Shown here: one piece after another, positions 7,784 through 62,762 of the stretch
Layout of the letters: each line of letters starts with the position of its first letter
Position numbering within the stretch: the first letter of the stretch is position 1
Source of the DNA: Desulfovibrio sp. TomC
Lineage (GTDB): Bacteria > Desulfobacterota > Desulfovibrionia > Desulfovibrionales > Desulfovibrionaceae
Direction: 5' to 3'
Assembly (NCBI RefSeq): GCF_000801335.2
Contig: NZ_JSEH01000016.1
Coordinates: 62,001 to 126,000 of the forward strand
Length of the DNA stretch: 64,000 nucleotides
Translations under genes and position numbers: made by a program
The notes under the pieces: model-generated
Database searches by the model: none
What the model was told of the DNA's origin: nothing
Seen by the model: only the letters and a program-made list of their open reading frames with translations

Positions 7784-10429
7784 TCACTCCCCCGCCACGG
7801 CCGCCTTGACCTTGGCCAGGGCTTCGTCGATGCCGGCCGGGTTGGTGCCGCCGGCCTGGGCCATGTCGGGCCGGCCGCCGCCGGAACCGCCAACCGCCAC
7901 GGCCGCGTCCTTAATCAGCACCGGAGCCGTAAATCTGGCATGCAGGTCTTTGCTGACGGCAACGATCAGGCTGACCTTGCCGCCTTCCTGCTCGGCTGCG
8001 ATGGCGATGACGCCGGAGGGGAGCTTGCTGCGCAGATCGTCCATGGCTTCGCGCAGCGCCTTGACGCTTGGCGCGTCCACCCGGGCGCACAGCAGCGGCA
8101 CGCCATTGACCTCTTCCAGGCCGGCCATGAGGTCGCGGCCCTGGCCGGAGGCCAGCTTGGCGGCCAGCTGTTCCTTGTCCTTGCCAAGGGCCTTGATCTC
8201 GTCGAGGAGCTTTTTGACCCGCGCCGCCAGTTCGCCCGGCTTGGCCTTGACGGTTTTAAGCGTCTCGTCGAGTTCGCCGCGCATGGCCCGCACATGGTTG
8301 ATGGCATTGACGCCGGTGACGGCCTCGATGCGCCGGGTGCCGGCAGCCACGCCGGACTCGGATAAAATGTAGAAACTCCCGGCCTGTCCGGTGGCCTTGA
8401 TGTGCGTGCCGCCGCACAGTTCCATGGACACGCCCTGGACGTCGACCACGCGCACTTCGTCGCCGTATTTCTCGCCGAAAAGGGCGGTGGCCCCCTTGGC
8501 CCGGGCCGCCTCAATGCCAAGAACCTCGGTCACGACCGGGGCGTCGAGCAGGATGGCCGCGTTGACCTCGTCCTCCACCCGGGAGAGTTCCTCGGCGGTC
8601 ATGGCCGAAACATGGGAGAAGTCGAAGCGCAGCCGGTCGGGCGTCACCAGCGAACCGGCCTGATTGACGTGGCCGCCCAGCACGTTTTTAAGGGCCTTGT
8701 GGAGCAGATGGGTGCAGGTGTGGTTGCGGGCGCTGGCAGCGCGAACGGCCGCGTCCACGGCCAGCTCGGCTTCCTGGTCGAGCAGGATTTCGCCGGTTTT
8801 CACCTCGATATGGTGTGCCGTCAGCTCTGTGCCGGCCTTGATGGTGCCAAGCACGGCCACGTCGCCGGTCAGGGTCGTCACCTTGCCCACATCGCCGGCC
8901 TGACCGCCGGATTCGCCGTAAAAGGGGGTGACGGCGCAGACCATGTAGCCGGTTTCTCCGGCCACCAGGCGTTCGACCGCCAGCCCTTCGGCGGAAATAA
9001 GCGCATTGACCCGGCTGGCGGCGGTCAGCTGGTCATAGCCCACAAAGCGGGACTTCATGCCGGATTCCAGCAGCTCCAAAAAGAGCACGGCCGGATCGGT
9101 TTCGCCGGAACCCTTCCAGGCTTTTTTCGCCCGGGCCTTCTGCTCGGCCATGGAGGCCTTGTAGCCGTCCTCGTCGGCCGTGATGCCGCGCTTGCCGGCC
9201 ACGTCGTTGACGATGTCCAGCGGGAAGCCGTAGGTGTCGTAGAGCTTGAAGGCGAAGTCGCCGGTGATGACCGTCTCGCCGGCAGCGGTCATGCGGTCGA
9301 GTTCCTCGGCCAGGATGGCCAGACCCTTGTCCAGGGTCACACCGAAGCGCTCTTCTTCCTCGCGCACCACCCGCTCCATGAATTCGCGGCTGGCGACCAG
9401 TTCCGGGAAGGCCTCGCCCATGACGTCGACCACGACGCCGGCGGTTTTGTAGAGGAACGGATCAGACAGGCCGATGAGCTTCCCGAAGCGCAAGGCCCGG
9501 CGGATCAGCCGGCGAAGGACATAGCCCCGGCCCTCGTTGGAGGGCATGACGCCGTCGGCCAGGAGAAAGGCCACGGAGCGGCTGTGGTCGCCGATGACCC
9601 GCAGGGCGGTGTCGTGCTCGTCGTTGTCGCCGTAGGTCACGCCCGCGATGGTGGCGGCGGAGGCGATGATGGCCTGGAAAAGATCGATGTCGAAATTGGA
9701 ATGCACGCCCTGGACCACGGCGGCAATGCGCTCCAGGCCCATGCCGGTGTCGATGCTCGGACGCGGCAGGGACACGCGGTTGCCCGGCTCGATCTGGTCG
9801 TACTGCATGAAGACGAGGTTCCAGATTTCGAGATAGCGGTCGCAGTCGCACTTGCCGATGCCGCAGTTCGGGCCGCAGCCCACTTCCTCGCCCCGGTCGT
9901 ACATGATCTCGGAGCAGGGACCGCAGGGGCCGGTGTCGCCCATGGACCAGAAATTGTCCTTGTCGCCCAGGCGGAAGATGCGGTCGTCGGAGAGGCCCGC
10001 GATCTTTTTCCACAGCCCGTGGGCCTCGTCGTCGTCGAGGTAGACCGTGGCGTAGAGGCGGGATTTGTCCAGGCCGATGACCTCGGTCAAAAATTCCCAG
10101 GCGAAGGTGATGGCGTCTTCTTTGAAGTAGTCGCCAAAGGAGAAGTTGCCGAGCATCTCAAAAAACGTGTGATGGCGGGCGGTGCGGCCGACGTTTTCCA
10201 GGTCGTTGTGCTTGCCGCCGACGCGCAGGCATTTCTGCGAGGTGGTGGCGCGCACGTACCCGGGCTTGTCCTGGCCGAGAAAGACCTTCTTGAACTGGAC
10301 CATACCGGCGTTGGTGAAAAGAAGCGTCGGGTCTTCGCGCGGCACCAGCGGCGACGACGCCACCACCTGATGTCCCTTGGACGCGAAAAATTCCAGAAAC
10401 TTGGCGCGAATCTCGGTAGCCGTCATCAT
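7784..10429 (-). CDS. alaS: alanyl-tRNA synthetase
   Basis: Charges tRNA-Ala; 881 residues, normal for the bacterial enzyme. The start is taken at the first of two adjacent ATGs (10429) because GGAGG lies 10 bases upstream. The aminoacylation core opens with [15 protein letters not shown] and includes motif [20 protein letters not shown] and [20 protein letters not shown]. The editing domain has HxxxH in [11 protein letters not shown] and CxxxH in [10 protein letters not shown]. The C-terminal C-Ala domain ends with [15 protein letters not shown], close to the family [15 protein letters not shown]. It is monocistronic, with a dispersed hairpin element directly behind the stop. Confidence 0.98.
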
Positions 10430-10514
10430 TGTTTTTATGCCTCCGCATGGGGATGGAAGATCAAAGGAATCACATCCCCCGCATCTTCCTCGAAAAGTAA
10501 AGACGAAGAGCCAG

Positions 10515-10590
10515 GAGGGGCGTTGCCCCTCCCGGACCCTCCCCATCGGGGGGGATCATCCCCCCCGAACCCCCTGTACGGGGTGGGGTG
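10515..10590. repeat. dispersed hairpin element, diverged copy C2
   Basis: Upstream of alaS the sequence holds AGGGGCGTTGCCCCT, GGACCC, a GGGGGGATCATCCCCCC hairpin and a CCCC...GGGG pair (CCCCTGTACGGGG). These are the modules of the dispersed family in a rearranged order, so orientation is uncertain. Between this copy and copy C1 (10591-10762) there is no gene; a GTGGGGTCCGGGGCAACGCC stretch resembles the accessory hairpin seen near glgB. Confidence 0.55.
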
Positions 10591-10762
10591 TAAATTTCAT
10601 ACGCTGCCCGCTCAGTTGGCGGGAGCAGTCTGTTCAATAAAGCGCCCGTGGTCTTGCCGTAGCTCTCTGCCAGCAGCACGCCCCCCCAATGTGGGGTCCG
10701 GGGCAACGCCCTGGCCGCCAAAACAACGGGGGGTCTCGTCAGACGTACGCTCCGCTTGCCCC

Positions 10763-10864
10763 GGACCACAGCCGACCGGATTGCCAGTCAACTCCAAAAA
10801 ACCCTTTAAAAATTCTCCCCTTTGCAGGGGTCCGGGGGGATCATCCCCCCGGCCGCCGGAGGCA
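10763..10864 (-). repeat. dispersed hairpin element, copy C1
   Basis: A full-length copy on the minus strand about 20 bases behind the recA stop. In order it has GCCTCCGGCGGCC, a GGGGGGATGATCCCCCC hairpin, GGACCCCTGCA, a T/A-rich centre ending AAAGGGTTTTTT, GACTGGCAATCCGGTCGGC and TGTGG. The last block is shared with copies F (near rdgB) and H (before the GTPase gene). Confidence 0.75.
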
Positions 10865-10884
10865 CTCTTCCTCCTGCCGCTCAC

Positions 10885-11961
10885 CTACATGCCGTCTTCT
10901 TCTTCCATCACTTCGGGCGTTTCAGGGGTGGGCGGCGGTGTGTATTCGGCAAAACCCAGGTGTTCGCGCAGCTTGCCTTCGATCTGGTCGCGGATGTCGG
11001 TATGTTCCTGCAAAAAGGCCCGGACATTGTCGCGGCCCTGGCCCAGGCGTTCGGAACCATAGGCGAACCAGGAGCCGGACTTGTCCACGATGCCGGCTTC
11101 GATGCCCATGTCGATGAGTTCGCCTTCGCGGGACACGCCCGTGCCGTAGAGGATGTCGAACAGGGCCTCGCGGAACGGCGGGGCGCACTTGTTCTTGACC
11201 ACCTTGACCCGGCAGCGGCTGCCGTAGGTCTCTTCCTTGTCCTTAAGGGTCTGGATGCGGCGGATGTCCAGGCGGATGCTGGCGTAAAATTTGAGGGCAT
11301 TGCCGCCGGTGGTGGTTTCCGGGCTGCCGTAGCCGGTCATGCCGATCTTCATGCGGATCTGGTTGATGAAAATCACCGACGTATTGGATTTGTGAATGGT
11401 GCCGGTGAGCTTGCGCATGGCGTGGGACATGAGCCGGGCCTGGCCGCCGACTTGCGTTTCGCCCATTTCGCCTTCGAGTTCGGCCTGGGGAATAAGAGCG
11501 GCCACGGAGTCGATGACCACCACGTCCACGGCGTTGGAGCGCACCAGCAGATCGGCAATGTCCAGGGCCTGCTCGCCGTAGTCGGGCTGGGAAATAAGCA
11601 GTTCCGGGGTGTTGACGCCAAGCCGCCGGGCGTAGTTGACGTCCAGGGCGTGTTCGGCGTCAATAAACGCGGCCGTGCCGCCGAGCTTTTGGGATTCGGC
11701 AATGATGTGCAGGGCCAGCGTGGTCTTGCCCGAGGATTCCGGGCCGTAAATTTCCGTGATGCGGCCCTTGGGGATGCCGCCGATGCCCAGGGCCAGATCG
11801 AGGCCGATGGAGCCGGTGGGAATGGACGGAATTTTTACGTGGGCCGAATCTTCCATACGCATGACCGCGCCCGCCCCGTGCTTGCGTTCGATGGTGGTCA
11901 GCGCGGTGGCGAGGGCTTCGTTGCGGAAATCTTCGGGGCTTAACGCGGGCTTACGGGCCAT
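10885..11961 (-). CDS. recA: recombinase RecA
   Basis: ATP-dependent strand-exchange protein and SOS co-protease; 358 residues. The start [18 protein letters not shown] at 11961 is preceded by AGGAG 9 bases upstream, so the open upstream frame is excluded. Visible motifs: Walker [10 protein letters not shown] near residue 75, [20 protein letters not shown] (Walker B and loop L1), [20 protein letters not shown] (loop L2, DNA binding), and [14 protein letters not shown]. The C-terminus ends in an acidic tail (EVMEEEDGM), as in most RecA proteins. No RecX gene follows; the next gene downstream on this strand is alaS. No convincing LexA box was recognised upstream. Confidence 0.98.
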
Positions 11962-53040: not shown

Positions 53041-53214
53041 CCTTTGTAGTGGTCTGGAGGGCGACCCTCCCCCGGCCGCCGGAGCAGGCGGTGGTCCCCG
53101 TCAAGGCTGTCACGGTCCACGGCCGACCGCATTGCCGGCCAGCACCCAAAACCCCTTGAAAACTTCTCCCTGTGCAGGGGTCCGGGGGGCTACCCTCCCC
53201 CCGGCCGCCGGAGG
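53041..53214 (-). repeat. dispersed hairpin element, copy H, with partial copy
   Basis: A minus-strand full copy (53114-53214): GCCTCCGGCGGCC, CCGGGGGG...CCCCCCGG with an AGGGTAG centre, GGACCCCTGCA, GGGAGAAGTTTTCAAGGGGTTTTGG-type centre, GGCCGGCAATGCGGTCGGCCGTGG-type end. A truncated copy lies at 53041-53085. Unlike most copies it points against both flanking genes, and its GGAGG (53210-53214, plus strand) serves as the ribosome binding site region of the next gene. Confidence 0.72.
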
Positions 53215-53225
53215 CAACAAACACC

Positions 53226-53924
53226 ATGCAGCTTGTCACCGTGGCCGGCCCGCCGTCGTCGGGCAAGACCTCAGTCCTTCTCCGCCTGGCCGCCGTGCTG
53301 GGGTGTCGGAAGTCGACCCTTGGCGTGGTCAAGTTCGACTGTCTGACCAGCCACGACAAGGACGCCTTTGACCGGGCCGGCATCCCCTGTGTGGTGGGAC
53401 TTTCCGGCGCGCTTTGCCCGGACCACTTCTTCGTATGCAACGCCGCCGACGCCCATGCCTGGGGAATTGCCCAGGGCATCGGCGTCCTGGCCATCGAGAG
53501 CGCCGGGCTGTGCAACCGCTGCGCCCCGCACATCGAGGGGGCGCTGGCCGTGTGCGTGGTGGACAACCTGTCCGGCATCGACACCCCGGCCAAGATCGGT
53601 CCCATGCTGCGTCTGGCCGATGTGGTGGTCATCACCAAGGGCGATGTGGTGTCCCAGGCCGAACGCGAGGTGTTCGCCTTCCGGGTGCGCCGGGCCAACC
53701 CCCGGGCCACGGTGCTCTTTGTCAGCGGCTTAACCGGCCAGGGAGCCGAAGCCCTGGCCCATGTGGTGGCCGCCGCGCCCCAGACCCCGGGCATCGACGG
53801 GGCCAATCTGCGTTTTACCATGCCGGCGGCGGTGTGTTCCTACTGCCTGGGCCAACGCAAGATCGGCACGGACCATCAGATGGGCAACGTGCGCAAAATG
53901 GATTTCGGCCGGGAGCAGCCATGA
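53226..53924 (+). CDS. HypB/UreG-like (SIMIBI) GTPase with CxxC motifs
   Basis: A 232-residue P-loop GTPase. Walker A is GPPSSGKTS at residues 8-16. Residues SAGLCNRCAPHIEGALAVCV contain a CxxC in the position where HypB/UreG proteins have their switch region, and VVVITKGDVVSQAE supplies the G4-type base-recognition motif. The C-terminus has CSYCLGQRKIGTDHQMGN, a second CxxC plus His. These cysteines suggest a bound metal or cluster. It starts a three-gene unit with an ABC ATPase (ATGA overlap) and a binding protein. A metal- or cofactor-insertion role for a nearby metalloenzyme is suggested by context only. Confidence 0.78.
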   Translation: MQLVTVAGPPSSGKTSVLLRLAAVLGCRKSTLGVVKFDCLTSHDKDAFDRAGIPCVVGLSGALCPDHFFVCNAADAHAWGIAQGIGVLAIESAGLCNRCAPHIEGALAVCVVDNLSGIDTPAKIGPMLRLADVVVITKGDVVSQAEREVFAFRVRRANPRATVLFVSGLTGQGAEALAHVVAAAPQTPGIDGANLRFTMPAAVCSYCLGQRKIGTDHQMGNVRKMDFGREQP

Positions 53925-54925
53925 CCGACGCCACCGCCCACCCCACCTTTGCCGCCATCTGGCGACAGTCGCCCCCGGCCCGGGATTTCTTCGCCGTCCA
54001 GGGGCTGCCGGCCCCCCGGCCCGACCAGACCCCGGCCGCCTATTTCGCCGCCCTGCCCCCCGAAGCCCTGACCGAAGCGGCCGGCTCGGCCAGTGCTCTG
54101 TCGGCCCGCTTCGAGGCCTTCCTGACCGCGCTTTCACGCCTTACCAACGACGCCCCGACGGTTGCTTCGCTCACCGTGCACGGCGGCCGGGGCAAGGACG
54201 GGCGGCCCGAAACCCTGGACCTGACCCTGGTACCGGGCGACGTGGTGGCCCTGGCCGGTCCCACCGGCTCGGGCAAAAGCCGCTTTCTGGCCGATGTCGA
54301 ATGGCTGGCCGACGCCGACACCCCGACCGGGCGGCGGGTCTTGATCAACGGCCAGCCGGCCGACGCCTCCCGCCGGCTGGCCGCTTCGGGCCGGCTCATT
54401 GCCCAGCTGTCGCAAAACATGCACTTCGTCATGGACCTGACCGTTGGGGAATTTCTCATCGCCCATGCCGAGAGCCGGCTTCTGGCCGACGCCCCGGCGG
54501 CGGCAGCCGAGGTGACCACGCTTGCCAACGAGCTGGCCGGAGAACCGTTTTCCCCGACCACGCCGCTGACCTCCCTTTCCGGCGGCCAGAGCCGGGCGCT
54601 CATGATCGCCGACGTGGCCAGGCTGTGCGCCTCGCCCATTGTGCTGGTGGATGAGATTGAAAACGCCGGCATCGACCGGCGAAAGGCCATTTCGCTTTTA
54701 ACCGGCCACGGCAAGATCGTGCTCATGGCCACCCACGATCCCCTGCTGGCCCTGACCGCCGGCAGGCGACTTGTCTTTGCCGCCGGAGCCGTGGCCGCGG
54801 TTATCGAAACAAGCCCAGAGGAAAAAGCGTCCCTGGCCGCCCTGGCTGCGGCCGACGCCCGCCTGAGCGCCCTGCGCGACGATCTGCGCCTGGGCCGCCA
54901 CCTGCAATTTCCCCGGGAGCCGTGA
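53921..54925 (+). CDS. ABC-type ATPase, stand-alone, of uncharacterised family
   Basis: A 334-residue ATPase coupled by ATGA to the GTPase gene. An N-terminal region of about 80 residues (ARDFFAVQGLPAPRPDQTPA) is not ABC-like. Then follow Walker A GPTGSGKSRFLADV, Q-loop region LIAQLSQNMHFVMDLTVGEF, signature LSGGQSRALMIADVARL, Walker B PIVLVDEIENAGIDRRKA and H-loop MATHDPLLAL. No membrane component is encoded nearby, so it may not be a transporter but an ATP-driven accessory protein of the module. The following gene begins 4 bases after the stop. Confidence 0.82.
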   Translation: MTDATAHPTFAAIWRQSPPARDFFAVQGLPAPRPDQTPAAYFAALPPEALTEAAGSASALSARFEAFLTALSRLTNDAPTVASLTVHGGRGKDGRPETLDLTLVPGDVVALAGPTGSGKSRFLADVEWLADADTPTGRRVLINGQPADASRRLAASGRLIAQLSQNMHFVMDLTVGEFLIAHAESRLLADAPAAAAEVTTLANELAGEPFSPTTPLTSLSGGQSRALMIADVARLCASPIVLVDEIENAGIDRRKAISLLTGHGKIVLMATHDPLLALTAGRRLVFAAGAVAAVIETSPEEKASLAALAAADARLSALRDDLRLGRHLQFPREP

Positions 54926-54929
54926 AACC

Positions 54930-56156
54930 ATGCCCGATACGTTGTCTCTTGATCTGCCGGTCAGCCGGTTTCTGGCCGACCATCCCGCAGCCCGGACCGT
55001 CCTGGCCGAACTGGGGGTGGGGGCCTCCTCCGACGCCGAATTTCTGGCTTCAGCCGCGCCGTTTCTGTCCATGGGCAGCCTGTTGACCATAAACGGCCTG
55101 TCCGCCGCCCTGTTTCTGGCGGCCGTGGACGCCGCCGGCCACGCCGCTAAAGGCCCGGGCGGCATGACGCCGCTTTTTTGCGACGGCTGGACACCGGGCG
55201 GAGCCGGGCTGCGGCTTTTTGCAAGCCTGCCCTGTCCGCTCAAGGCCCCCATGGGCCTTGCCCTGGAAAACCTGCGCGACAGCCTGCCCCCGGGCGCGCC
55301 CTGGCCGCGCCTGTTCATGGACAGCTGCGGCAAACATACGCTCAACGACCTGGCCGCCGGCCTGACCCGGCCCGAAGAAGTGCCGGACATGGTCGTCTCG
55401 GCCGGCTTGAATGGCTTTCTCTCCAGGGCTTTTCGCGACCGCTTTGCCGGCGGCGGCCTTTTGGCCGAACTGCCCCAGGCCATCCACCCGGCCCTGGCCT
55501 CGGCCGGGCTGGCCGATCCGCGCCGGGTCTGCCGCATCTATGCCATAAACCCGCTCGTGCTGGTGGCCGTGCCCTCGCGTCTGGACGGTCTGCCTGTGCC
55601 GCGCTCCTTTGATGCGCTGTTAGACCCGGTCTATGCCGGCAAGATCGGCCTGTGCGGCCCGCCGGAGACGGCCGGCGACTCCACGCTGCTCCTTGACATC
55701 CGCCTGCGCCATGGCCTCGATGCCGTGGCCGACCTGGGCCGGGCCATGCTGTGCGACACCCACCCGGCCCAGATTTTCCGGCCGGCCCCAGGCGTCAAGG
55801 CCCCGCCCATTGGCGTCATGCCGGCCTTTTTCGCCAATGCCGCGCCGCGCCAGGGCGATGTGGAAATCATCTGGCCGGACGGCGGCGCGCTGGCCTCGCC
55901 GCTCTTTGTGATGGTCAAGGAAAAGGCCCAAGACGCCCTGGCCCCGTTGCTCGATTTCTTTCTCGGGCAGGAGACAGCGGCCATCGCCGCCGGCGCGGCC
56001 CTGCCGCCAACCCTGCCCAGGGCCGACGTCAGCCTGCCGCCCGGGGCTTCGGTGCGCTTTCTCGGCTGGGACGTGCTGGAGAGCCAGGACCTCGGACCGC
56101 TTATCGCCGAGTCCGGGGCGGCCTTTGCCACGGCCTATTACGGCAGAAACGGCTAG
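54930..56156 (+). CDS. solute-binding-protein-like protein without signal peptide, DUF1858-like N-terminus
   Basis: A 408-residue protein. The first about 60 residues (LDLPVSRFLADHPAARTVLA, ELGVG) resemble DUF1858/ScdA-N-type helical domains. The remainder has the organisation of type II periplasmic binding proteins, with PRSFDALLDPVYAGKIGLCG, PPETAGDSTLLLDI and IIWPDGGALASPLFVMVKEK, as in ferric or sulfate-type binding proteins. No signal peptide or lipobox is present, so it should stay in the cytoplasm. It closes the GTPase-ABC unit. It may sense or hold a small anion or metal complex for the ATPases. Confidence 0.72.
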   Translation: MPDTLSLDLPVSRFLADHPAARTVLAELGVGASSDAEFLASAAPFLSMGSLLTINGLSAALFLAAVDAAGHAAKGPGGMTPLFCDGWTPGGAGLRLFASLPCPLKAPMGLALENLRDSLPPGAPWPRLFMDSCGKHTLNDLAAGLTRPEEVPDMVVSAGLNGFLSRAFRDRFAGGGLLAELPQAIHPALASAGLADPRRVCRIYAINPLVLVAVPSRLDGLPVPRSFDALLDPVYAGKIGLCGPPETAGDSTLLLDIRLRHGLDAVADLGRAMLCDTHPAQIFRPAPGVKAPPIGVMPAFFANAAPRQGDVEIIWPDGGALASPLFVMVKEKAQDALAPLLDFFLGQETAAIAAGAALPPTLPRADVSLPPGASVRFLGWDVLESQDLGPLIAESGAAFATAYYGRNG

Positions 56157-56173
56157 GACACGGGGGAAAGAGA

Positions 56174-56232
56174 TGCCTCCGGCGGCCAAAGGGACTGAGT
56201 CCCTTTGGAATCCCCTCCTGGGGTACGTTCGA
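56174..56232 (+). repeat. dispersed hairpin element, copy I1 (AAAGGGAC variant)
   Basis: Starts 18 bases behind the stop of the binding-protein gene in the same orientation. It is almost identical to copy G: GCCTCCGGCGGCC, CCAAAGGGACTGAGTCCCTTTGG, AATCCCCTCCTGGGGTACG. Confidence 0.75.
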
Positions 56233-56325
56233 TTTGACAGTGCGCGTTGCCGAGTCGGTGAGCGGCAGTTGCACACGAAAAGATGAGAGGGGCCGTGCCC
56301 GTTGGCACTGGACGGGAAACACCGT

Positions 56326-56385
56326 TGCTCCGGCGGCCGGGGGGATGATCCCCCCGGACCCCTCGACGGGAGATGTTTTTGAGAG
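56326..56385 (+). repeat. dispersed hairpin element, copy I2
   Basis: CTCCGGCGGCC, a GGGGGGATGATCCCCCC hairpin and GGACCCCTCGACGGGAGATG with a T-run (56376-56380), lying between the converging binding-protein gene and the HycB-like gene. In the plus direction it could serve as a terminator for the GTPase-ABC unit. Confidence 0.7.
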
Positions 56386-56392
56386 TGCGCTT

Positions 56393-56932
56393 TCACCCCT
56401 GGGGCTGCGGCAATACCAGGGCGGCCAGCCGTCGTCGGTCGGCGGCCAGACGGGCCAAGGCGGCCGGTTCGTAGAGGGTCAGCGCCCCGGCCGGGCAGAC
56501 GGCCAGACAGGCCGGGCCAACCGGATTGGGCGAATCGGACGGGCGGCCCCGGCACAGGTCGCACTTGCCGGCCACCAGCCGGGCCGGGCCAACGGTGGCC
56601 GGCAGCATGTTCATGGTCCCCACCGGACACACAGCCAGACAGGCCTTGCAACCGGTGCAGGCCGCTTCGACGATGGTAACGGACCGACCGTCGGAGGTGA
56701 TGCAGCCGGCCGGGCAGACCCGGGCACAGGGAGCATCCTCGCACTGGCGGCACTGCACCGGCACGACCAACCCGCCCTCGCGCACAATCGTCAGACGCGG
56801 AGCAAAGCCCGCGCCCTGTTCCATGGCCCGGCCCGGGTCGCAGCCAGCCGGCAAATGGGCCAGGGAGCAGGCGATTTCGCAGGCCCGGCAACCGATGCAG
56901 CAGTCGGGGTCGGCCAGGACAAAGGCGTGCAT
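56393..56932 (-). CDS. HycB-like four-cluster ferredoxin subunit (distal)
   Basis: A 179-residue electron-transfer protein. Four [4Fe-4S] motifs are visible: DCCIGCRACEIAC, CRQCEDAPCARVCPAGC, CTGCKACLAVCPVGT, and CDLC...PACLAVCPAGA. This is the HycB/DmsB/FdhB pattern. The start at 56932 overlaps the hydA stop (ATGA). It is the last gene of the fdhF operon. In hydrogen-dependent CO2 reductase two such small subunits form the wire between hydrogenase and formate dehydrogenase, and this gene is the natural candidate for one of them. Confidence 0.88.
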   Translation of the reverse strand: MHAFVLADPDCCIGCRACEIACSLAHLPAGCDPGRAMEQGAGFAPRLTIVREGGLVVPVQCRQCEDAPCARVCPAGCITSDGRSVTIVEAACTGCKACLAVCPVGTMNMLPATVGPARLVAGKCDLCRGRPSDSPNPVGPACLAVCPAGALTLYEPAALARLAADRRRLAALVLPQPQG

Positions 56933-58344
56933 CAGTCCTGCCCCTCCTCTCCCCTTCCCTGGCCGGCCCCGCCGTAGACGGTGTGGAGCAGCTCGTGGGA
57001 GCGGTGCGAGAGCGGTTTTTCCAAAAATGCGGCGTAGAGTTGAACCACCGCCGGGTTTTCGTGGCTCATCCGCACCGGCAATTCCCGGTCGTGGCAGGAC
57101 AGGGCCTCGCGCCGGGCGGCCACGGCCGCAGCCACATCCACCCCGGGCAAGAGCTTGGGCGTGCCGCCGCCGGCCACGCAGCCGCCCGGACAGCACATCA
57201 CTTCCATGAACTGGAAATCGGCCCGCCCTTCGGCCACGGCAGCCAGCAGCGGCGCGGCATTGGCCAGTCCATTGACGACCACGGCGGCCAAGGCCCGGCC
57301 GCCCAAGGTGAACTCGGCCCGGGACAGGCCCGGCCCGGCCGGTTCAAAGACAATGCCGGACTGGGGCGCGCAAGCCGCCCCGCCATCAACCACGGCCACG
57401 GCCGTGCGCAGGGCCGCTTCCATCACCCCGCCCGAACCACCGAAAATGACCCCGGCCCCGGAATAGCGGCCAAGCGGCGCGTCGAACGGCTCGTCAGGAA
57501 GGCCCGGCAGGTCGATGCCGGCTTCCTTGAGCCAGACCGCCAGCTCGGCCACGGTCAGGACCACGTCCACATCGGCCAGACCGGCCTCCCGGGAGCGCAG
57601 TTCCGGTCGGGCCGCCTCGTACTTCTTGGCCGTACACGGCATGACCGACAGGCTGGCCACCCGGGCGGGGTCGATCCCGTCCAGGGCGGCGGCGTAGCTT
57701 TTAAAGAGCGCCCCGGCCATCTGCTGCGGCGATTTGCACGAGGACAGGTGCGGGATAAGCTTAGGCCAGGCCGTTTCCACATGGCGCACCCAGGCCGGGC
57801 AGCAGGAGGTGAAAAGGGGGAGGGCCGCTCCGGAGTCCAGGCGCGAGAGCAATTCGGCGCTTTCCTCCATGATGGTGACGTCGGCGGCAAACGTGGTGTC
57901 GTAGACTGCGGCAAAGCCCAGGCGGCGCAGGGCGGCGGCCAGCTTGCCCGGGGTCAGCGTCCCGGGCGGCAGGCCGAATTCCTCGGCCAGGGTGACGCGC
58001 ACGGCCGGGGCGCACTGGACCATGGCCACCTTGGAGGCATCGGCTGCAAGGGCCTGGGCAGCGGCCAGATCGCACCGGCTGTAGGCGGCAAAGACCGGGC
58101 CGGCCGTTTCGGGCCGGCCGCGCTCCCGGCAGATGGCCGCGACGTCGTGGGGCGGCTCGTCAAAAGGCGCGGCAAAGGCGGCGCACAGCTGGACGCACTG
58201 GCCGCACAGGACGCAGCGGGCCGCGTCGATGGTTTTGGCCTGTCCGTCCGGGCCGGAAACGGCCCCGACCGGACAGACGGCGGCGCACCGGCCGCAGCCC
58301 GTGCACAGGGTCGGATCAATGGCGATGATGGGACCCGCGGTCAT
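56932..58344 (-). CDS. hydA: [FeFe]-hydrogenase catalytic subunit with fused small-subunit domain
   Basis: A 470-residue [FeFe]-hydrogenase. N-terminal clusters: CTGCGRCAAVCPVGA (residues 14-24) and CVLCGQCVQLC (44-54). H-cluster motifs: L1 TSCCPAW at 179-185, L2 MPCTAKKYEA at 235-244, and L3 EVMCCPGGCVAGGG further on. The C-terminal about 60 residues (LPVRMSHENPAVVQLYAAFL, HRSHELLHTVY) correspond to the iron-hydrogenase small subunit, fused here. No twin-arginine signal is present, so the enzyme is cytoplasmic. Both gene borders overlap neighbours by ATGA, coupling it to fdhF and two HycB-like genes. Maturases HydEFG are not in the window. Confidence 0.95.
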   Translation of the reverse strand: MTAGPIIAIDPTLCTGCGRCAAVCPVGAVSGPDGQAKTIDAARCVLCGQCVQLCAAFAAPFDEPPHDVAAICRERGRPETAGPVFAAYSRCDLAAAQALAADASKVAMVQCAPAVRVTLAEEFGLPPGTLTPGKLAAALRRLGFAAVYDTTFAADVTIMEESAELLSRLDSGAALPLFTSCCPAWVRHVETAWPKLIPHLSSCKSPQQMAGALFKSYAAALDGIDPARVASLSVMPCTAKKYEAARPELRSREAGLADVDVVLTVAELAVWLKEAGIDLPGLPDEPFDAPLGRYSGAGVIFGGSGGVMEAALRTAVAVVDGGAACAPQSGIVFEPAGPGLSRAEFTLGGRALAAVVVNGLANAAPLLAAVAEGRADFQFMEVMCCPGGCVAGGGTPKLLPGVDVAAAVAARREALSCHDRELPVRMSHENPAVVQLYAAFLEKPLSHRSHELLHTVYGGAGQGRGEEGQD

Positions 58345-58937
58345 GACGCCGCCCCCCGGTCGTCCCGGCTTGGCGCACCGGCCAGGGCCAGGGCGGCGGC
58401 CCGGAGACGGTCCTGGCGCAGACGGGCCGGCTCGACGCACTCCAAGGCCCCGGTCGGACAGGCGGCCACGCAGGCCGGACCAGCCGGGCGCTCCCGGCAC
58501 AGATCGCACTTGCTGGCCAGCAGGGCCGGCGTCTCCAGGTAGCCTTCAGGCGCACCCGCATCCACGATGCGGTGCATGACCGGCCGGCCGTTTTCCACCA
58601 CCTCGGCCAGGGCCATGGCCCCGACCGGACAGGCAGCCAGGCAGGTCTTGCAGCCAATACAGCGCCCGGTCACAACCACCACCCCGGAGGCGTCGCAGTG
58701 GATGGCGGCGGTCGGACACACGGCCGCGCACGGGGCGGCCTCGCAGTGGCGGCAGGCCACCGGCAGGCACAACGCCCCCTCCCGCACCAGATACAGGCGC
58801 GGCACGACCGGCCCGCCAAGGCTGCCCACCGTGGCCCCGGCCGGCACATGGGCCGCGCCGCAGGCCAGTTCGCAGGCCCGGCAGCCGATGCAGGCCTCGG
58901 CCCGGGCCACAATAAATGGTCGAAGCGATTGGTTCAT
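58341..58937 (-). CDS. HycB-like four-cluster ferredoxin subunit (proximal)
   Basis: A 198-residue electron-transfer protein with motifs ACIGCRACELAC, CRHCEAAPCAAVCPTAA, CIGCKTCLAACPVGA and CDLCRERPAGPACVAACPTGA, four [4Fe-4S] clusters. It starts at 58937, overlapping the fdhF stop by ATGA, and ends overlapping hydA. It is about 20 residues longer than the distal HycB-like protein, with an Ala/Arg-rich C-terminal helix. Its position directly behind fdhF suggests it contacts the formate dehydrogenase subunit. Confidence 0.9.
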   Translation of the reverse strand: MNQSLRPFIVARAEACIGCRACELACGAAHVPAGATVGSLGGPVVPRLYLVREGALCLPVACRHCEAAPCAAVCPTAAIHCDASGVVVVTGRCIGCKTCLAACPVGAMALAEVVENGRPVMHRIVDAGAPEGYLETPALLASKCDLCRERPAGPACVAACPTGALECVEPARLRQDRLRAAALALAGAPSRDDRGAAS

Positions 58938-60991
58938 CGCGTTTCCTTCCTGGGTTGCACGGTACTGATGGCCGCAGCGCAGGCCTTAAAGGACGGCGTG
59001 CCGGCCACCGGATCAGCCACGGCCGTGGTCAGGGCATTGGCCGGGGACTCGGTGAAATGGAAGGTCATAAAGACCATGCCCGGGGGCACCCGGCGGGTCA
59101 CCGCCGCCCGCACCGTGACCTGCCCCCGGCGGGTGCGCACGACCATACGCCCGCCGTCGGCCACGCCGTAGCGGGCGGCGTCGTCGGGATGGACCTCGGC
59201 CAGCTCCTCGGGGGCGACCCCGGCCAGCCCGAAACAGCGCCGCGTCATCGTCGCGGTGTGGTAGTGGGCAACCACCCGGCCGGTGGTCAGGATCAGGGGA
59301 TAGTCGGCATCGGGCGGCTCGGCCTGGGGCCGGGCGGCCAGCGGCACAAATTTCCCCAGGCCCCGGGCGCATTGGCCGACATGAAGGATCGGCGTGCCGG
59401 GATGGTCCTCGTCCGGGCAGGGCCATTGCAGGCCGCCGTGCTCCAGGCGGGCGTAGGTCATGCCGGCGTAGCTCGGGGTCAACCGGCGCATCTCGTCAAA
59501 AACGGCCTCGGCCGTGGGATAACGTTCGGGCCGGCCCAGGCGGGCCAGCAGGTCGGCCAGGATGACCCAGTCCGGCCGGCTCCCGCCAACCGGGTCGATG
59601 GCCCGGCGCACCCGCTGCACCCGGCGTTCGGTGCTGGCAAAGGTCCCGTCCTTTTCGGCAAAGCTGGCCCCGGGCAGGACCACATGAGCCAGGGCGGCCG
59701 TCTCGGTCAGAAAAATGTCCTGGACCACCAGAAATTCGGCCGCCTTGAGGCAATGCTCCACATGGCCGATGTCCGGGTCGCTGCGCATGGGGTTTTCCCC
59801 AAAGACATACAGGCCCCGCACGGTGCCGTGGTGCGCCCCGTCAAGCATCTTCGGGAGGTTCAGTCCAGGCGTCCCCGGCAGGGTGACGCCCCAGGCCGCC
59901 TCAAAGGTCTGGCGCACGGCGTCGTCGGCCACGCCGCGATAGCCGGTCAGGACATTGGGCAGCGCGCCCATGTCGCAGGAGCCTTGCACGTTGTTTTGCC
60001 CGCGCAGCGGATTGACCCCGGTCTTGGGCCGGCCCAGATTGCCGGTGGCCAGGGCCAGATTGGACACGGCCAGGACATTGTCCGTGCCGGTGACATGCTG
60101 GGTGACGCCCATGGTGTAGTAAAAAGCGGCATTGGCCGAGGTTCCAATGATCCGGGCCGCCCGGCGGATAGCGTCTGCCGTCACGCCGGAGACGGCAGAC
60201 GCCGTGTCCGGGGAAAAAGCGGCCAGACTTTGGCGAAAGGCGGCAAAACCCTCGGTGCGCCCGTCGATAAAGGCCGTATCGGCCAGCCCTTCGTCCACGA
60301 TGACCCGGGCCAGGGCCGAAAGCAGCGTGACATCCGTGCCCGAGCGCAGACGCAGCCAGACGTCGGCCCGGCGGGCCAGATCGATCTCCCGGGGGTCGAC
60401 GACCACCAGGGCCGCGCCCCGGCGTTTGGCCTCAAGCATGGCCAGGCCGATGATCGGATGGCACTCGGTGGTGTTGGAGCCGATGACCACCATACAATCG
60501 CCCGGCCCCATGGCGGCAATTTCGGCGATGCTGTTGGTCATGGACCCGCTGCCCAGACTGGTGGCCAGACCGGCCACGGTGGGACCGTGTCAGAGCCGGG
60601 CGCAATGGTCGATATTGTTGCTGCCAAGGCCGGCCCGGAAGAACTTCTGGAAGAGATAGTTCTCCTCGATGGTGCACCGGGCGCTGCTGAAACCGCCCAC
60701 GCACTGCGGGCCGTGCCCGGCGGCCAGGGTCCTAAACGTGCCGGCGACCAACTCCAAAGCGTCGTCCCAGGAGGCCGGCACAAGCCGGCCCCGGGAGCGG
60801 ATGAGCGGGGTTTTGAGGCGGTCGGCGTGGGTGACGAAATCAAAGCCGTACCGGCCCTTGGAACACAGGGCCGGTCCATTGACCGACGGCGACGGCCCGG
60901 GATCAGCGGCAACAATGCGTCCGTCGGCCACGGCCAGGGTCAGGGAACAGCCGACCCCGCAGTAGGGGCAGGTGGTGTTGATGCCTTGCAT
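58934..60991 (-). CDS. fdhF: selenocysteine-containing formate dehydrogenase H-type catalytic subunit
   Basis: Molybdenum or tungsten bis-MGD enzyme of 685 residues. It starts at ATG 60991 (MQGINTTCPYCGVGCSLTL) with the N-terminal CxxCxxxC plus a later Cys in ALCSKGRYG for one [4Fe-4S] cluster. An in-frame UGA at 60592-60590 is residue 134, in the context NIDHCARL-U-HGPTVAGLATS, matching ARVUHGPSVAGL of E. coli FdhF, with a bacterial SECIS behind it. Later blocks: MTNSIAEI, VIGSNTTECHPI, and KTGVNPLRGQNNVQGSCDMG. The C-terminal cofactor domain ends near RRVPPGMVFMTFHF. There is no export signal. It heads an operon with two HycB-like genes and hydA. A plain translation would wrongly split it in two. 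Confidence 0.95.
60561..60577 (-). promoter_or_regulatory. bacterial SECIS hairpin of fdhF
   Basis: On the minus strand GTGGCC-GGTCT-GGCCAC forms a 6-bp stem with the apical loop GGTCT, starting 12 bases behind the UGA at 60592-60590. The E. coli fdhF element has the same apical GGUCU and an 11-base distance. It should recruit SelB for selenocysteine insertion. Confidence 0.88.
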
Positions 60992-61031
60992 GGGCAGGCT
61001 GCTTAGCACAGGCCATGCCGGAACGCAGCCG

Positions 61032-62762
61032 TTACGGCATGGCCCGGTCCAGGCGGTTGGCCGGGTCTTCGGCCCGACCAGGGCAGGCCAGGGGCCGGCG
61101 CGAAATGGCATGGATGGCGCGCATTTGCCCGGTCCGCCGGGCCTCGCCGCTCGCCCCGGCTGCGGTCGGTTGCCATACGGATTCGAGGCCCAGAGCCAGG
61201 ACGACAGCCAGGCACAACACCTCGGCCACCAGCCAGGGCGCAAGATCCAGACGGACCAGGGCGTGGTGAGCGGCCAGTAGCCGGATGGCCCGGTAGAGGT
61301 CGGCTGTGCCGGTCTCCTGGGCCACCAACACGTTGTAGACGCCGTCCATGAAGGCGAGGTTGAAAAGCCCGGCCAAAAGCAGCAACGCCCCGGCCGCCGC
61401 CCGCCGACCGCACAGGGCCGGTCCCAGGAGCAGCAGGCCAAAGGTCACGGGCAGGGCCAACATGCCGTACCACCCGCCGGTGGTGGGAAAACCCCAGCGG
61501 GCCGCCGACTGCACGGCATGGTAGCCAAGGGCCGCGGCCGTTGCCGCCCACAAAAGGAGCAGCGGCCCGGACGCGGCAGCCAGCCCGGCCGCTTCCCGCC
61601 GGCCGGTTGGCCGGAGCAGGGCCGCGCCAAGGGCCAGCAGACAGCCGGTCACCGCCGCCTTGAACCCGAGGTTTTGCCAGTCCGGGGAATGCAGATTGGA
61701 CCAGCCGGCCAGATGGGGCGTGGCATTATAGAGGATGGGGTTGCGGAAAAACCCGTAGCCAAGCCGGCCGGCCGCAGCCAGGTATTTGCCTGGGCCAAAG
61801 CCCTGCCGGGCATTGAAGACCGCTTCCTGCATGCCGGTCAGCTGGCCATACCGGGCCAGCGAGGCGGCGTGGTACCAGCCGGCCACGAGCAGATACCCGA
61901 CAGCCAGGGCCAGGACGGCGGTCAGAGCGGCCCGACGGCGGCCGGGCAGCCGGCCCGGCCACAGCACCGCCAGACCCAGGGCCGGGACCAGGGCCAGGGT
62001 GGTGGCCTTGGCCAGCACAGCCAGCCCCACAAGGCCGCCAAGCAGGCCGTAGCGCCACAGTCCCCGCAGGCCGGTCAGGCCGCGCGGGGCAATGTCCAGC
62101 ACGTACAGGGCCAGGGCGGCGCTGCCCAGACAGATGGCCAGGGCGTCGTTGGAAAAGCGCACAAAATTGAAAAATACGTAGGAAAAGCTGACCAGCAACA
62201 GCACAATGCCGTCCGGGAGCCAGCCGAGCCGGCCGTTTTTCGGGACAATGCGGCGCAGGATGGCGTGCCACAGGAAAAGCGTGACCAGGAGCAGCGCCCC
62301 GTTGGCCAGACGCACCCCGTCGGCCCAGGCCAGCAGACTTTGCGGATCAAACCCGCCGAGAAACGGCGCGGCCAGATGATAAAAGAGCGGCCCGTGCTGG
62401 GCCTCGTAGCAGAACATGTCAAAGCGTTTGGCCGGTTCGGCCGAGGCGGCCGGGTCCGGGCCGGGATAGGGCACGGCCGCGATGCCGCGCAGCATGGACA
62501 GCGAGGTGGCGGGATGGGGATGGGCCGTTATAAACGGGACCAGTTCCCGGGGCATGGGCGTGCGGGCCGTCGGCATGTGGCCGGTCTTGGCCACGAAGGC
62601 GGCCACGGCCAGATGCGGCAGTTCGTCCCAGCCGTTAAAAGGCAATTGGGCCTGGGTCAGGCAGACGACGCGGATGGCGGCCAGAAGCAGCGCCATCGGC
62701 AGCAACAGACGACCGGACCGGGTAAAGCGGGTCAGCCGGGAAAGGAATGCGGTCTCAACCAT
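61032..62762 (-). CDS. polytopic membrane protein, GT-C-like glycosyltransferase family
   Basis: A 576-residue protein with about 11-13 membrane spans. After the first span (LLLPMALLLAAIRVVCLTQA) an extracytoplasmic loop contains FNGWDELPHLAVAAFV, an acidic motif of the type seen in GT-C/PMT-like or DUF2142 proteins, then YEAQHGPLFYHLAAPF. VRFSNDALAICLGSAALALY and further spans follow. The C-terminal about 40 residues are soluble. It probably transfers a sugar from a polyprenyl-phosphate donor, but neither donor nor acceptor can be named. The stop lies within a 10-bp hairpin (GGCCATGCCG/CGGCATGGCC, 61011-61044), 40 bases before fdhF. Confidence 0.72.
   Translation of the reverse strand: MVETAFLSRLTRFTRSGRLLLPMALLLAAIRVVCLTQAQLPFNGWDELPHLAVAAFVAKTGHMPTARTPMPRELVPFITAHPHPATSLSMLRGIAAVPYPGPDPAASAEPAKRFDMFCYEAQHGPLFYHLAAPFLGGFDPQSLLAWADGVRLANGALLLVTLFLWHAILRRIVPKNGRLGWLPDGIVLLLVSFSYVFFNFVRFSNDALAICLGSAALALYVLDIAPRGLTGLRGLWRYGLLGGLVGLAVLAKATTLALVPALGLAVLWPGRLPGRRRAALTAVLALAVGYLLVAGWYHAASLARYGQLTGMQEAVFNARQGFGPGKYLAAAGRLGYGFFRNPILYNATPHLAGWSNLHSPDWQNLGFKAAVTGCLLALGAALLRPTGRREAAGLAAASGPLLLLWAATAAALGYHAVQSAARWGFPTTGGWYGMLALPVTFGLLLLGPALCGRRAAAGALLLLAGLFNLAFMDGVYNVLVAQETGTADLYRAIRLLAAHHALVRLDLAPWLVAEVLCLAVVLALGLESVWQPTAAGASGEARRTGQMRAIHAISRRPLACPGRAEDPANRLDRAMP

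Follow-up and report, generated by a model that had tools for sequence, protein, structure and literature searches.

Gene Content and Organization of the Locus

Four reading frames lie end to end on the minus strand of the window, by which we mean the whole 64,000-nucleotide stretch of the Desulfovibrio sp. TomC genome analyzed here (contig NZ_JSEH01000016.1, positions 62,001 to 126,000). They run from window position 60991 to 56393 in the order fdhF, hycB-1, hydA and hycB-2 (Table 1). These genes very probably encode a cytoplasmic, reversible hydrogen:CO2 oxidoreductase of the hydrogen-dependent CO2 reductase (HDCR) type, because HydA has the HydA2 of Thermoanaerobacter kivui as its best match and falls in its clade, and because the four-gene order is conserved. 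The subunits are identified by their sequences, and the electron path, the formation of a complex and its reversibility are presumed from characterized HDCRs. The set of FdhF, HydA2 and two HycB-type genes that defines an HDCR is clustered here, and the HDCRs of T. kivui (PDB 7qv7) and Acetobacterium woodii likewise comprise FdhF, HydA2 and two HycB proteins with no membrane subunit in the cluster.

A first-pass annotation of this DNA had proposed a four-gene operon with the full HDCR subunit set, and the reading frames, the family models and the conserved gene set bear this out. It had also joined all genes by ATGA overlaps, which holds for the fdhF/hycB-1 (58937-58934) and hycB-1/hydA (58344-58341) junctions; hydA and hycB-2 are instead joined by TGATG, with one base shared at 56932. 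Inspection of the sequence by eye agreed that the operon itself has neither a membrane subunit nor an export signal, a membrane-protein gene lying 40 bp upstream.

Table 1. Genes of the HDCR-type operon, with positions in the window.
Gene	Position	Strand	Product and features
fdhF	58934..60991	-	Mo/W formate dehydrogenase catalytic subunit; selenocysteine (Sec) at codon 134, TGA 60592-60590
hycB-1	58341..58937	-	Iron-sulfur electron-transfer subunit; four [4Fe-4S] sites read from Cys positions; best solved match T. kivui HycB4
hydA	56932..58344	-	[FeFe]-hydrogenase, HydA2 type; two ferredoxin-type motifs, H-cluster motifs, fused small-subunit domain (PF02256)
hycB-2	56393..56932	-	Second iron-sulfur electron-transfer subunit; four [4Fe-4S] sites read from Cys positions

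Hydrogenase and Iron-Sulfur Subunits

HydA harbors the motifs TSCCPAW, MPCTAK and EVMCCPGGC, two CxxCxxCxxxC motifs, and the domains PF02906 (at 1.5e-87) and PF02256 (at 3.8e-19). With the H-cluster motifs, the Cys groups and PF02256 all present, the earlier statement that the catalytic motifs are intact and that hydA carries a fused small-subunit domain is upheld. Among solved structures the highest score, 488.6 bits, was that of HydA2 from the T. kivui HDCR, the next chain scoring 342.8. In a tree of 38 hand-picked rows, the window HydA, T. kivui HydA2 and 28 further rows formed one clade (support 100/100), apart from eight other [FeFe]-hydrogenases. HydA thus belongs to the HydA2 lineage of HDCRs, with two [4Fe-4S] clusters in addition to the H-cluster and its adjacent cluster, as described in passages of Schuchmann et al. 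(2018; PMC6288185). A wider HydA tree used 64 of 102 rows picked by locus number; hydA matches under about 380 residues were excluded, by which one broken gene (G143) was dropped. Separate origins of HydA within the Desulfovibrionaceae were considered but are not claimed: 12 of the 16 rows form one clade and four lie elsewhere, the two groups being joined in 0% of 200 bootstrap trees, but a single clade is not rejected by the approximately unbiased (AU) test (p-AU 0.318).

Family models found ferredoxin-type domains in both HycB proteins. Each has 19 Cys, read as four four-Cys groups, and this reading of the Cys positions gives the four [4Fe-4S] clusters per HycB of an HDCR. Against solved structures, HycB-1 matched HycB4 (162 bits) and then HycB3 (113 bits) of the T. 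kivui HDCR, and HycB-2 matched the same two chains at 106 and 97 bits.

Formate Dehydrogenase Subunit and Its Lineage

The fdhF gene has 685 codons ahead of its stop, and its in-frame TGA stands in the context CARL-U-HGPT. The protein, whose query (P0001) included three residues ahead of the FdhF start, scored 809.5 bits against TIGR01591 (cut-off 666.25). Among solved structures it matched an F420-dependent formate dehydrogenase (FDH; 718.3 bits) and the HDCR FdhF (714.9 bits) about equally, and Escherichia coli FDH-H at 566 bits. The TGA occupies the identical codon in 15 of 15 Desulfovibrionaceae fdhF loci (14 of them distinct, L029 and L116 being one contig). When stretches of 51 and 43 nt around the TGA were folded, their z-scores were 0.23 and -0.78, with no sign of a selenocysteine element, and Rfam, also searched for this element, had no match at the gathering threshold in the window. 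Selenocysteine is therefore assigned from the conserved TGA codon and from the presence of SelB in the genome.

The 33-row FdhF tree, of which only nine rows are non-HDCR, was built without L033, a partial sequence, and without L029, L031 and L038, which duplicate or nearly duplicate other sequences. The Desulfovibrionaceae and one Bacillota sequence (L035) form a clade of their own (100/99). E. coli FDH-H is grouped with the remaining HDCR FdhFs, which are that of T. kivui and six from Bacillota and a spirochaete (98/93; 96/93 after removal of a Deinococcus row). Simple common descent, which is no part of the definition of an HDCR, would have united the window FdhF and the remaining HDCR FdhFs in a single clade, which the tree does not show. 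In AU tests, for which the groups were named after the trees had been seen, forcing all HDCR FdhFs into one clade was rejected (p-AU 1.5e-6), probably in the main because E. coli FDH-H lies inside; joining the Desulfovibrionaceae FdhFs and L035 with that of T. kivui was weakly rejected (p-AU 0.022), and a clade made up of E. coli FDH-H and every HDCR FdhF was not (p-AU 0.184). It is likely but not settled, given the small tree sample, that the Desulfovibrionaceae FdhF belongs to a different lineage from the acetogen HDCR FdhFs. A limited look at the literature found no separate FdhF lineage in print; such a lineage, if real, could be relevant to catalytic bias and to the dependence on selenium.

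Distribution of the Cluster

Our family survey was one draw of 149 Desulfovibrionaceae genomes, and 26 of them had a HydA match at 1e-100. Sixteen, called HDCR-bearing below, have matches spanning the N-terminal ferredoxin region; they include the window's own genome and the one with the broken gene (G143). The remaining 10 matches begin at about residue 87 or later, and three of these loci that were inspected (L123-L125) had no fdhF or hycB match nearby. The order fdhF, hycB, hydA, hycB is kept in all 14 other family loci in which both flanks could be read (L108, L109, L111-L122), counting L111 despite its broken hydA and L108 despite an intervening transposase gene, and leaving out L028 and L110, where the DNA ends before fdhF, and L029, which duplicates L116. 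Within the same genus the cluster occurs in five of the nine genomes drawn, once with a broken hydA. The broken gene, at L111 (G143:C101, 2331-3730), comes from the closest relative found, is about 90% identical, and is split over two frames through either decay or a draft-assembly error. The gene between fdhF and hycB-1 of L108 (G133, 10116-11126) is transposase-like, and we take it to be IS110-like. The closest named relative found is a contig from a Solidesulfovibrio magneticus metagenome-assembled genome, with a HydA 81% identical and with hydA and hycB-2 followed by the same downstream neighbors as in the window.

Desulfobaculum bizertense SY-1 also carries a complete fdhF-hycB-hydA-hycB set on a plasmid of 72.6 kb (L147, NZ_CP090010.1, 15007-19622), and the genes that come after it encode an ATP-binding protein and a sigma-54-dependent regulator. 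This locus is 98.9% identical over 9.5 kb to that of another family genome (G036). The typing result for the plasmid is non-mobilizable, a property that makes easy spread less likely. Of 72,556 plasmid records, 14 have a HydA match at 1e-40, the D. bizertense plasmid being the best. The second-best match (48.5%) is at 953065-954432 of NZ_CP154629.1, a 2.6-Mb Acetoanaerobium noterae record.

Comparison with Known Systems

HDCR clusters in sulfate reducers are already in print, and the window holds one more HDCR of the Desulfovibrionaceae. In passages of Schuchmann et al. (2018; PMC6288185), HDCR gene clusters are reported for 18 organisms, of which five reduce sulfate (Desulfotalea psychrophila, Desulfobacterium autotrophicum, D. 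alaskensis, D. magneticus, and D. salexigens), so that the novelty suggested by the first-pass annotation finds no support. The last three share the family of the window and the same kind of cluster; they are, however, other species, with no known difference in function, and the genes of D. alaskensis G20 are likened to those of the window by description only. Putative HDCR clusters in 25 organisms are given in a passage of Schwarz et al. (2018; PMC6119302), and a putative cytoplasmic formate:hydrogen lyase of D. alaskensis G20 in passages of Price et al. (2014; PMC4215793), who cite Pereira et al. Passages of PMC10213532, PMC10084766, and PMC4046663 (the last on Desulfotignum) contained nothing on a Desulfovibrionaceae HDCR. 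Our additions are modest, namely the FdhF lineage, the missing formyltetrahydrofolate synthetase (FTHFS), CdhC and pyruvate formate-lyase (PFL), and the plasmid-borne cluster in one relative.

As regards T. kivui, the sequence comparison (made with this species and not with A. woodii) places the window HydA in the clade of its HydA2, whereas the window FdhF falls outside the clade of its FdhF and has Sec where T. kivui has Cys. Unlike the clusters of both acetogens, the window has neither fdhD nor a formate transporter among the flanking genes scanned, and its host has no FTHFS or CdhC match. The Group A4 Fdh/Hyd complex of Clostridium beijerinckii is also a soluble four-subunit FdhF/HydA/HycB1/HycB2 assembly and, according to passages of PMC12905484, catalyzes both reactions in vitro at similar rates; it is a Mo-containing clostridial enzyme likened to the window operon by description and not by sequence.

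E. coli formate hydrogenlyase (FHL-1) shares FdhF and a HycB-type protein with the operon, FHL subunit 2 matching HycB-1 at 74 bits and HycB-2 at 75 bits. In E. coli a [NiFe]-hydrogenase and a membrane arm are encoded with FdhF/HycB, whereas in the operon and the scanned flanks only an [FeFe]-hydrogenase was seen, with neither a [NiFe]-hydrogenase nor a membrane arm, and the window FdhF is outside the FDH-H clade. The electron-bifurcating FDH-hydrogenase of the C. autoethanogenum type differs in its flavin/bifurcating Hyt subunits, none of which is among the eight window proteins scanned (53172-62762).

Proposed Function and Alternatives

In the proposed HDCR-type complex, electrons of H2 would enter at the H-cluster of HydA and travel by way of the HydA ferredoxin-type clusters and both HycBs to the Mo/W-Sec center of FdhF, where CO2 would be reduced to formate; in reverse, formate would yield H2. 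The genome, rated 99.95% complete, encodes HydG (667 bits) and SelB (374 bits), both above cut-off, as well as two other [FeFe]-hydrogenase-like genes and two other FDH-like genes with an in-frame TGA (C1, C4). Beside these, the complex would most likely act as a reversible valve between the H2 and formate pools.

Several observations weigh against assigning the operon to an HDCR. In the FdhF trees, acetogen HDCR FdhFs and E. coli FDH-H share a clade that leaves out the window FdhF, so that the two modules are paired on the evidence of gene order. The match to FdhD is below cut-off (109.8 vs. 140.9 bits), and no biochemistry of a Desulfovibrionaceae HDCR was seen in the literature listings. 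Moreover, passages of Price et al. (2014; PMC4215793) report unaltered growth on formate or lactate with sulfate for D. alaskensis mutants in the putative formate:hydrogen lyase, the genes of which may be orthologous to those of the window. The first-pass annotation had described an HDCR heterotetramer, a cytoplasmic formate-H2 enzyme; its HDCR type is retained on the structure matches, the HydA tree and the gene set, and the expected FdhF clade is not. The trees that it called for put HydA with T. kivui HydA2 and FdhF outside the T. kivui/E. coli FDH-H group, and consequently only half of the outcome it had named as adverse, with both proteins in separate non-HDCR clades, was seen.

This divergence of the trees, which join FdhF and HydA to different relatives, would fit two separate enzymes, each with its own HycB, that merely share an operon. 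We regard this as highly improbable, as the genes overlap, the identical four-gene set recurs in all 14 other readable family loci, and both HycBs are closest to HDCR HycBs. A single HDCR-type complex could also be run mainly as a formate hydrogenlyase disposing of cytoplasmic formate, which is possible if rather doubtful. The reaction is reversible in the C. beijerinckii relative (passages of PMC12905484), formate disposal has been proposed for HDCR-type clusters in Paenibacillus (in a passage of PMC6288185), and the genome has one distant match to the PFL model (G000:C13, 151 of 994 bits), likely another glycyl-radical enzyme. It is the sole match, however, and no PFL scores above cut-off in this genome; across the family only one of 149 genomes (G070) has one, and it is not HDCR-bearing. 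Formate disposal as raised in the first-pass annotation therefore finds no support as far as PFL-derived formate is concerned.

The same annotation allowed for CO2 reduction, and a complex serving as a CO2 reductase that supplies one-carbon metabolism or the Wood-Ljungdahl pathway with formate has been proposed for sulfate reducers (in a passage of Schuchmann et al., 2018; PMC6288185). Model searches matched neither FTHFS nor CdhC in the genome, which makes a role as the first step of that pathway unlikely and leaves Wood-Ljungdahl CO2 fixation without support; as controls, the FTHFS, CdhC and PFL models passed cut-off in 3, 2 and 3 of 14 control genomes. FTHFS is above cut-off in 41 of the 149 family genomes, yet in only two of the 16 HDCR-bearing ones (G079, G142), compared with 39 of the other 133. 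The match in G074 is below cut-off, and 14 HDCR-bearing genomes, the window's included, lack FTHFS above cut-off. This rarity suggests that the published Wood-Ljungdahl proposal probably fails here, and we consider the feeding of formate into either route improbable. For the HDCR-type complex acting as a valve, we tentatively put forward, as an idea somewhat short of even likelihood, that the Desulfovibrionaceae HDCRs are a distinct chimera of an acetogen-type HydA2/HycB module and a Sec-containing FdhF of another lineage, at times plasmid-borne, which may serve H2/formate exchange in hosts without the Wood-Ljungdahl pathway.

Flanking Genes

The membrane-protein gene upstream of fdhF (61032-62762, same strand) matched nothing in Pfam or NCBIfam at E 0.001. 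It stands beside fdhF in the four same-genus loci with that flank present (the window, L108, L109, and L111) and was not detected there in 11 loci of other genera (L112-L122). On the plus strand, 53172-56156 encodes a HypB/CobW-like GTPase, an ABC ATPase without an adjoining permease, and a solute-binding-like protein (PF13343) in which inspection by eye showed no signal peptide. We rejected this three-gene set as HDCR-linked, since three genomes of the genus that lack an HDCR-level HydA match (G058, G097, and G121) keep the solute-binding gene, which is absent in G080. In such genomes the two partner genes adjoin it, and HDCR genes are not beside them. A hydrogenase-like protein with ferredoxin motifs, a longer C-terminal region and 26% identity to HydA is encoded at 2613-4430 of L143; genes of this kind, which are presumably of the sensory type, are situated a few kb away from the three-gene set in G121 and in G058 (L144), two of the genomes lacking an HDCR.

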